Positions 21,933-23,317 of a DNA stretch of 26,197 nt are shown piece after piece. The stretch's first letter is position 1; each line of letters begins with the position of its first letter. Source of the DNA: a virus; IMG/VR virus record IMGVR_UViG_3300017727_000133, positions 1-26,197 of that record; one strand, given 5' to 3'. The notes below the pieces were generated by a model. The model was not told where the DNA came from. It saw only the letters and a program-made list of their open reading frames with translations, and made no database searches. The position numbers were made by a program, and so were the translations under genes.

Positions 21933-22355
21933 GTGAATGAATACAAAATAGAATGGACACCAGAAAGTATGTTGGAGGTTTCTCTTTCTGAGCCCGATGA
22001 CTTTTTAAAAATTAAAGAAACTCTTACAAGAATAGGAGTAGCATCTAAGCGCGAATCACAAACGCTATTTCAGAGCTGCCATATTCTTCATAAGCAAGGA
22101 CGGTACTTTATTGTACACTTCAAAGAATTGTTTATGCTTGATGGAAAACCGTCTAACCTTAGTGAAGACGACATAGCACGAAGAAACACAATTGCGATTC
22201 TTTTATCTGATTGGGGTTTACTTGATGTACTTAGTGAAGAAAAAGCAGCTGAAAGAACTTCATTACGTAATATAAAAATAATATCTCACCGCGATAAGAA
22301 CGATTGGGTTCTTGAAGCAAAATACTCAATAGGAAACGTAAAAACGTATAAATAA
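21933..22355 (+). CDS. regA: Translational repressor RegA
   Basis: The conserved body LSEPDDFLKIKETLTRIGVA, QSCHILHKQGRYFIVHFKEL, FMLDGKPSNLSEDDIARRNT, ILLSDWGLLDVL and KYSIGN matches T4 RegA (122 residues) along its length. RegA binds start regions of replication mRNAs and blocks their translation. From GTG 21933 the protein is 140 residues; from ATG 21969 it is 128 and begins MLEVSL, aligning exactly with the T4 start MIEITL. Neither has a Shine-Dalgarno sequence. The late box fits the ATG better; the N-terminal EYKIEWTPES looks protein-like, so the longer form is kept. Identification firm, start uncertain. Confidence 0.93.
   Translation: MNEYKIEWTPESMLEVSLSEPDDFLKIKETLTRIGVASKRESQTLFQSCHILHKQGRYFIVHFKELFMLDGKPSNLSEDDIARRNTIAILLSDWGLLDVLSEEKAAERTSLRNIKIISHRDKNDWVLEAKYSIGNVKTYK
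22347..22354 (+). promoter_or_regulatory. T4-type late promoter box
   Basis: This is an exact TATAAATA overlapping the regA stop, 5 bases before the ATG at 22360. The layout is the same as before uvsY and regA. Confidence 0.4.
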
Positions 22356-22747: not shown

Positions 22748-22755
22748 TATAAATA
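22748..22755 (+). promoter_or_regulatory. T4-type late promoter box before hsp20
   Basis: This is an exact TATAAATA, outside any gene, 65 bases before the hsp20 ATG. It would start an approximately 58-base leader with two predicted hairpins. Confidence 0.65.
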
Positions 22756-22763
22756 ACTTTATA

Positions 22764-22810
22764 GATGGTGCTCACAATGAGGCCATCGCCCTTAACCTGC
22801 CTAACGGAGG
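22764..22810 (+). promoter_or_regulatory. Two-hairpin leader masking the hsp20 ribosome-binding site
   Basis: Hairpin 1: GATGG (22764-22768) with CCATC (22783-22787), continuing CTCA with TGAG around a CAA loop. Hairpin 2: CCT-G-CC (22796-22801) pairs with GGAGG (22806-22810) around TAAC, with one bulged G. Hairpin 2 holds the full Shine-Dalgarno sequence. A bulged G opposite the Shine-Dalgarno is the mark of ROSE-type RNA thermometers of small heat-shock genes. No thermometer family was matched computationally. Confidence 0.5.
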
Positions 22811-22820
22811 ATAAAATAAA

Positions 22821-23255
22821 ATGACAAATACATATACATGGCCAGGTCAGACCTGGACTATCGGTTTTGATTCTATGTTTAATAGAATTGAAAAACTACA
22901 ATCACAACAACAGGGGTATCCACCTCATAACGTTGTAAATCACGGCGAAGAGAAATACGAAATTGCTCTTGCTGTTGCAGGATTCAGCGAAAAAGATTTA
23001 TTCGTTGAACAAGAAGAAAACGTTCTTACAATCGCATCAAAGGATGTAGATTTAAACGGAGATAAAGAATACATCCACAAAGGTATTGCAACTCGTAAAT
23101 TTCAAAAGAAATTCACACTAAGTGAATACGTTGAAGTTGATTCCGTTGCACTTGTCGATGGTATTCTTTCTGTATTCCTACAAAAAAATATACCAGAAGA
23201 AAAGAAGCCGAAGCGCTTTGGTATAAATACAACAAAAGAATTTTTAACTGAATAG
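22821..23255 (+). CDS. hsp20: Small heat-shock protein, Hsp20/alpha-crystallin family
   Basis: This 144-residue chaperone has an N-terminal WTIGFDSMFNRIEKLQ helix and then the alpha-crystallin domain: YEIALAVAGFSEKDLFVEQE, ENVLTIASKD, GIATRKFQKKFTLSEYVEVD and ALVDGILSVFLQKNIPEEKK. The last contains the G-x-L-type strand of the family, and the C-terminus ends KRFGINTTKEFLTE. It holds unfolding proteins in a refoldable state. Hsp20 is a common gene of marine T4-like phages. It has the strongest ribosome-binding site of the window, GGAGG 10 bases before the ATG, apparently hidden in a hairpin. Confidence 0.95.
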   Translation: MTNTYTWPGQTWTIGFDSMFNRIEKLQSQQQGYPPHNVVNHGEEKYEIALAVAGFSEKDLFVEQEENVLTIASKDVDLNGDKEYIHKGIATRKFQKKFTLSEYVEVDSVALVDGILSVFLQKNIPEEKKPKRFGINTTKEFLTE

Positions 23256-23277
23256 TTTTTTCTGCGTTAAACATTAA

Positions 23278-23317
23278 GTCCGTCGAGCCTTATTCCTGCT
23301 TGGCGGGCTTTTTTTTG
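23278..23317 (+). terminator. Rho-independent terminator after hsp20
   Basis: A 10-bp stem (23278-23287 with 23299-23308, three G-U pairs) with an 11-base loop is followed by eight or more T. The T tract runs into the -35 box of the gp43 promoter. Confidence 0.85.

Follow-up and report, generated by a model that had tools for sequence, protein, structure and literature searches.

The described systems closest to the leader analysed here are the ROSE_3 family (RF02523) and the short ROSE element of Pseudomonas ibpA (PMC3669281), in which the 5' untranslated region of a small heat-shock gene forms a stable hairpin followed by a short hairpin that holds the Shine-Dalgarno sequence (SD) and has one bulged G; in ROSE_3, the first hairpin also contains a bulged G, in a UGCC...CGGG context. 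Deletion of the bulged G in ROSE elements lowers heat induction (PMC3669281, PMC11342760), and ROSE-like elements occur on other genes too (PMC11342760). In E. coli, IbpA binds the ROSE leader of its own mRNA and holds down translation; this self-repression requires R93 and positive charges at positions 97 and 98 and was abolished by the substitution K98A (PMC10474464). In the ROSE-G variant, found on ABC-transporter genes, CUGCY faces the SD, with one bulged G on its side and two C-G pairs in place of the U-G wobble, and another G is bulged in the SD strand (PMC12857270). The cyanobacterial hsp17 thermometer, also on a small heat-shock gene, consists of one hairpin interrupted by a 1x3 internal loop (PMC4477652). 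In phages, temperature-responsive leaders have been described for lambda cIII, SPbeta blyA (fourU) and the sigma70 gene of gut Caudoviricetes (fourU) (PMC11182007, PMC10586365); these are of the fourU or alternative-structure kind and lie on genes other than hsp20, and the three phage RNA thermometers named in the open literature include none of the ROSE type (PMC11182007). The hsp20 gene itself belongs to the core genes of marine cyanophages (PMC3037559). Our search of the open literature, which took in few subscription papers, returned no ROSE element in a phage, no RNA control of phage hsp20 and no account of how phage hsp20 is regulated.

The leader lies in a window of 26,197 nucleotides, the whole stretch of viral DNA that was analysed (IMG/VR record IMGVR_UViG_3300017727_000133). 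Its gene content identified the source as part of a T4-like phage genome, and its DNA polymerase gp43 is 44-45% identical to the polymerases of cyanophages and of phage C48C1. With a late promoter box and a leader of about 60 nt in front and a strong terminator-like hairpin behind, hsp20 seems to form a transcription unit by itself (Table 1). The original prediction had used the late box to place the transcript start; the box is indeed present, and the start, about 58-60 nt before the hsp20 ATG, follows from the spacing of T4 late promoters applied to TATAAATA. Of the 179 phage hsp20 leaders described below, 76 have the same box no more than 130 nt upstream. The hsp20 SD had also been held to be the only strong one in the window, which proved wrong, since three other genes have six-base matches (GGAGGU at gene 1516, AAGGAG at gene 4062 and GGAGGU at gene 19991); it is the combination of a late box with a strong SD that is confined to hsp20 among the window genes. 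The start region of the 693 aa open reading frame (1488-1516), with its own GGAGGU, can form a G-bulged hairpin as well.

Table 1. Features of the hsp20 locus in the window. Bulged bases are in square brackets.
Feature	Position	Strand	Basis or remark
Clamp loader genes	19991, 21517		Profile matches (Pfam, PHROG)
regA	21933-22355		Two genes upstream of hsp20
Prohead-protease-inhibitor gene	22360		Weak match
T4-type late promoter box TATAAATA	22748-22755	+	Sequence
Hairpin 1, GAUGGU[G]CUC...GAGGCCAUC, bulged G22770	22764-22787	+	Fold; covariation in relatives
Linker joining both hairpins	22788-22795	+	Sequence
Anti-SD CCU[G]CC, bulged G22799 at the ROSE position, variant of U(U/C)GCU	22796-22801	+	Sequence, fold, relatives
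Loop UAAC	22802-22805	+	Fold
SD GGAGG, pairs with 22796-22801	22806-22810	+	Fold
hsp20 gene, 144 aa, alpha-crystallin family	22821-23255	+	Pfam PF00011 (E=7.8e-16); phrog_432 (E=2.4e-40)
Predicted intrinsic terminator, hairpin and U run	23276-23316	+	Fold (z = -5.3); pattern scan
DNA polymerase gp43	23353		Profile match

Sequence and folding analyses of the leader recovered the pairing of GGAGG with CCUGCC around a single bulged G and a UAAC loop, as first proposed, together with the stable hairpin that had been noted before it; the bulged G of this first hairpin is an additional feature that had gone unremarked. The window leader thus resembles ROSE_3 and Pseudomonas ibpA in gene context (it precedes hsp20, as assigned by Pfam), in having the SD in the 3'-proximal hairpin after one of the one to three stable hairpins usual for ROSE-like elements, and in the bulged G of the SD stem; a bulged G in hairpin 1 is shared with ROSE_3. 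The window leader differs from both in being phage-borne, with a T4-type late box in its clade, in its fully Watson-Crick SD stem and in the motif CUGCC, which stands opposite the SD in place of U(U/C)GCU. The two C-G pairs and the bulged G opposite the SD are shared with ROSE-G, from which the window differs in its CUGCC (CUGCU in ROSE-G), its unbulged SD strand and its gene, hsp20. The window leader is ROSE-like in architecture and lacks UYGCU, one of the sequence features by which ROSE elements are defined.

Taken from the window sequence alone, the SD hairpin is not beyond chance. The whole leader was more stable than its shuffles (z = -2.4; 5 of 200 shuffles), and a G-bulged SD hairpin arose in 621 of 5,000 shuffled leaders (12%), with the SD buried at least as deeply in 249 of 1,000 (25%), as would be expected if a purine-rich SD had merely met a pyrimidine stretch. 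This explanation was refuted by comparative data. A relative of hsp20 was found in 507 phage records. Five different phage Hsp20 proteins served as queries to collect hsp20 loci in IMG/VR, which gave, after removal of duplicates, 179 distinct leaders. The G-bulged SD hairpin was present in 175 of these 179 and in 19 of 673 control leaders, which belong to other genes of at least 100 aa on the contigs carrying the hsp20 loci (Fisher p about 1e-153, indicative only, the leaders being related). When the count was restricted to genes with a strong SD, the association with hsp20 was again near-exclusive (137/142 versus 3/117 controls), and the bulged base was G in 139 leaders, A in one and T in one. 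Several of the 19 control genes with such a hairpin sit upstream of one homologous gene. In the controls L023, L033 and L052, the conserved leader of a gene of about 355 aa contains a G-bulged inverted repeat, CUCUUUCGCCU...AAAGGGGAUUUUU followed by TATAAATA, which looks, from its sequence, like a terminator and then a late promoter.

Compensatory changes were observed in both stems, so that the search for homologous leaders without the pairing, proposed as a refutation, turned out in favour of the hairpin. Since a MAFFT alignment of 43 divergent leaders lost the hairpin registers, stem alignments of equal length were used; the covariation counts refer to related sequences rather than independent events, and slid registers scored far lower. 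Comparison of the window clade (CCUGCC...GGAGG) with its relatives, which have CUC[G]CU or CUU[G]CU (CUCGCU...AGGAG in L027, L028, L038 and L041), shows both bases replaced at three of the five pairs of the SD stem, and in other groups the outermost pair turns from C-G to G-C with the SD changing along. The structure is kept even where the SD itself is altered, as in S-TIM61 (L561, 300-361), in which AAGGUGG faces CCAC[G]CUU. Hairpin 1 is 100% paired in all eight distinct sequences of the window clade, with double compensatory changes at 4 of 9 pairs, and in the broader set the two hairpins together have double changes at 6 of 14 pairs. The motif U(U/C)GCU was present in 149 of the 178 phage leaders having an SD, L027, L028, L038 and L041 of the window's close relatives also having it, and the dominant phage form, U(U/C)GCUUAA...AAGGAG, is the exact ROSE motif; given these counts and the form found in the window's close relatives, the window sequence is best classed as a derived, divergent variant and not as a canonical ROSE member.

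Covariance searches tied the phage leaders to bacterial ROSE elements. Rfam ROSE_3 matched the leaders of Melnitz-3 (E=1.6e-6), C48C1 (E=1.3e-4) and L039, a relative of the window (E=9.1e-6); in the full Melnitz-3 and C48C1 genomes and in the L039 contig, the match was confined to the hsp20 leader, and its alignment took in hairpin 1, the bulged G of hairpin 1 and the SD hairpin. The scores (34.1 bits for the best phage leader, 29.5 for the window relative) are below the gathering threshold of 43. Conversely, a covariance model built from 14 phage leaders only (R1) recovered P. aeruginosa ibpA (L564, E=4.4e-6), E. coli ibpA (0.008) and ibpB (0.001), and SAR11 hsp20 leaders with E down to 1e-15. 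Of 13 complete phage genomes, 10 had their hsp20 leader matched by R1, which gave just one further, weaker match. The window's own leader had no match at E<10 in the Rfam search, ROSE_3 included, and was not scored by R1; it is connected to ROSE by close relatives that carry this gene, such as L009, whose leader was found by R1 and whose Hsp20 is 88% identical to that of the window. The entry L564 (Pseudomonas phage Y7, OQ572409.1, unverified) contains a stretch resembling P. aeruginosa IbpA and its ROSE leader, and is likely host DNA.

Among bacterial Hsp20 homologues, U(U/C)GCU was present in 74 of 80 leaders. The Hsp20 tree placed most phage proteins in one large group, with SAR11 inside and other proteobacteria outside, its long branches leaving the details uncertain. 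The SAR11 hsp20 genes L368, L373, L382, L386 and L421 also have a leader of this type, and their products branch within the phage group. Leaders that closely resemble or match phage ones were also seen before hsp20 in L357 and L358 (Rhodobacteraceae MAG Water_Bin34) and in L425 (Nonlabens xiamenensis), which are probably phage sequence inside bacterial assemblies.

A search of IMG/VR that used no protein information, with the pattern AACTCGCTTAAN{1,5}AAGGAG, led to the same gene. Among the matches listed, a start codon followed the motif by 3-16 nt in all 80 pattern loci examined, and the gene started was hsp20 in 68. The remaining 12 include truncated contigs, small genes directly preceding hsp20 (L451, L499, L511) and other small genes; in two of the 12, the motif lies just before hsp20 with a small helical gene between. 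ROSE-type leaders were also seen before small helical genes in L451, L479, L487, L501, L511 and L515, which are 70-97 aa long where complete, with one weak Phasin_2 match below the cut-off, and which in L451 and L511 directly precede hsp20; such genes possibly represent a second class of ROSE-controlled gene. Also among the 12 loci is L438:4898 (reverse strand); here the gene behind the ROSE-like motif is an ahpC-like peroxiredoxin gene, with an ahpF-like gene after it, on a contig that may be bacterial.

Folding of the leader at several temperatures, which had been proposed as a check, gave a divided answer: the predicted opening energy of the SD hairpin falls with heat, from 8.3 kcal/mol at 10 C to 5.0 at 37 C and 4.0 at 45 C, but the hairpin is predicted to be mostly closed even at 45-50 C. 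An identical calculation for the validated P. aeruginosa ROSE element gave 7.4, 3.7 and 2.8 kcal/mol, suggesting that the window hairpin would be somewhat tighter than a working thermometer, and its SD stem was among the most stable of 53 phage leaders compared. At 25 C, the opening energy was 6.6 kcal/mol with the bulged G and 10.8 kcal/mol after its removal in silico. Applied to E. coli ibpA, these Vienna energies indicated no response to temperature and, having missed the response of that element, they discriminate poorly and cannot decide function; with so weak an energy method, we infer temperature as the signal of the window leader by analogy with bacterial elements.

Taken together, the window hsp20 leader of this T4-like phage is probably a ROSE-type translational switch, a reading to which we give a probability of roughly 70%. 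The likeness to ROSE elements advanced in the original prediction is strongly supported as to anatomy, by the conserved bulged-G hairpin, the preceding hairpin, the covariation and the presence of UYGCU and ROSE_3 matches in relatives, but not as to the motif, which in the window is CUGCC. By analogy with ROSE elements, the leader should hold down hsp20 translation until the SD hairpin opens. The late transcript would start near 22761 and hairpin 1 would fold first; the short second hairpin would then bury GGAGG opposite CCUGCC, with one bulged G weakening the stem. While this hairpin is closed, little Hsp20 would be made; once opened by heat, probably aided by ribosome binding, the unusually strong SD would let chaperone be made in a rapid burst while virions assemble.

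The switch may respond to more than heat. Phage Hsp20 could bind its own leader and repress translation like E. coli IbpA, until misfolded or unassembled phage proteins engage the chaperone and repression lifts; the proteostasis load of late infection would then be the signal and temperature would be secondary. This chaperone titration, which has a real chance of applying though it falls short of even odds, may coexist with thermometer action, and the confidences given to the two are not exclusive because the mechanisms are compatible. The equivalent of R93 is Arg in 169 of the 179 phage Hsp20s, all of which have R or K at position 97 and an aromatic residue at position 34, and the window Hsp20 has R, K and K at the equivalents of 93, 97 and 98 and Y at 34, the full set of IbpA-type residues. 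The invariant bulged G of hairpin 1 exceeds what a bare thermometer needs, and the small temperature variation that marine hosts undergo within one infection also favours titration. However, most phage Hsp20s lack a cationic residue at position 98, the site at which K98A removed repression in E. coli, and R93 is general in proteobacterial small heat-shock proteins and may simply be inherited. Sensing of folding load by Hsp20 is plausible as a second signal in a phage that makes much structural protein. It is a more tentative proposal, and slightly less probable, that the hsp20 genes of marine T4-like phages (of SAR11 and Methylophilales, and cyanophages) and of HTVC115P-type pelagiphages have in common one class of ROSE-type leader, built of two bulged-G hairpins in tandem, that acts as a self-contained proteostasis sensor via Hsp20 self-repression relieved by heat or by assembling phage proteins.

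A leader that senses nothing is less probable still. It would be a static translation damper inherited with the bacterial hsp20, which only keeps the basal level low; the small predicted opening across marine temperatures agrees with this, and the same kind of leader in bacterial homologues could make it a relic, but both stems have evolved by compensatory changes and the bulged G is near-invariant across highly divergent phages, which argues for a specific weakened stem and not any stem. Binding by another phage regulator such as RegA is very unlikely: regA lies close by, and in S-RSM4 hsp20 directly follows it, but the element is also present in bacteria and in HTVC115P, a 55 kb phage with hsp20 near ribonucleotide reductase genes, and RegA targets are AU-rich start regions. 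Least credible of all is the chance pairing considered above, to which the conservation in homologues leaves almost no room. The reading as a ROSE-type switch stands as the preferred one, with translational repression by the leader proposed by analogy.

A ROSE-type leader class thus appears to be widespread on marine phage hsp20 genes and is apparently unreported in the open literature. Its conservation predicts that temperature or folding load directly controls translation of the phage chaperone, which would give a testable connection between sea-surface temperature and phage gene expression. In addition, cyanophages have the proteobacterial ROSE form and not the hsp17 type of cyanobacteria, and a proteobacterial-style switch in these phages would bear on the origin of their hsp20 gene.
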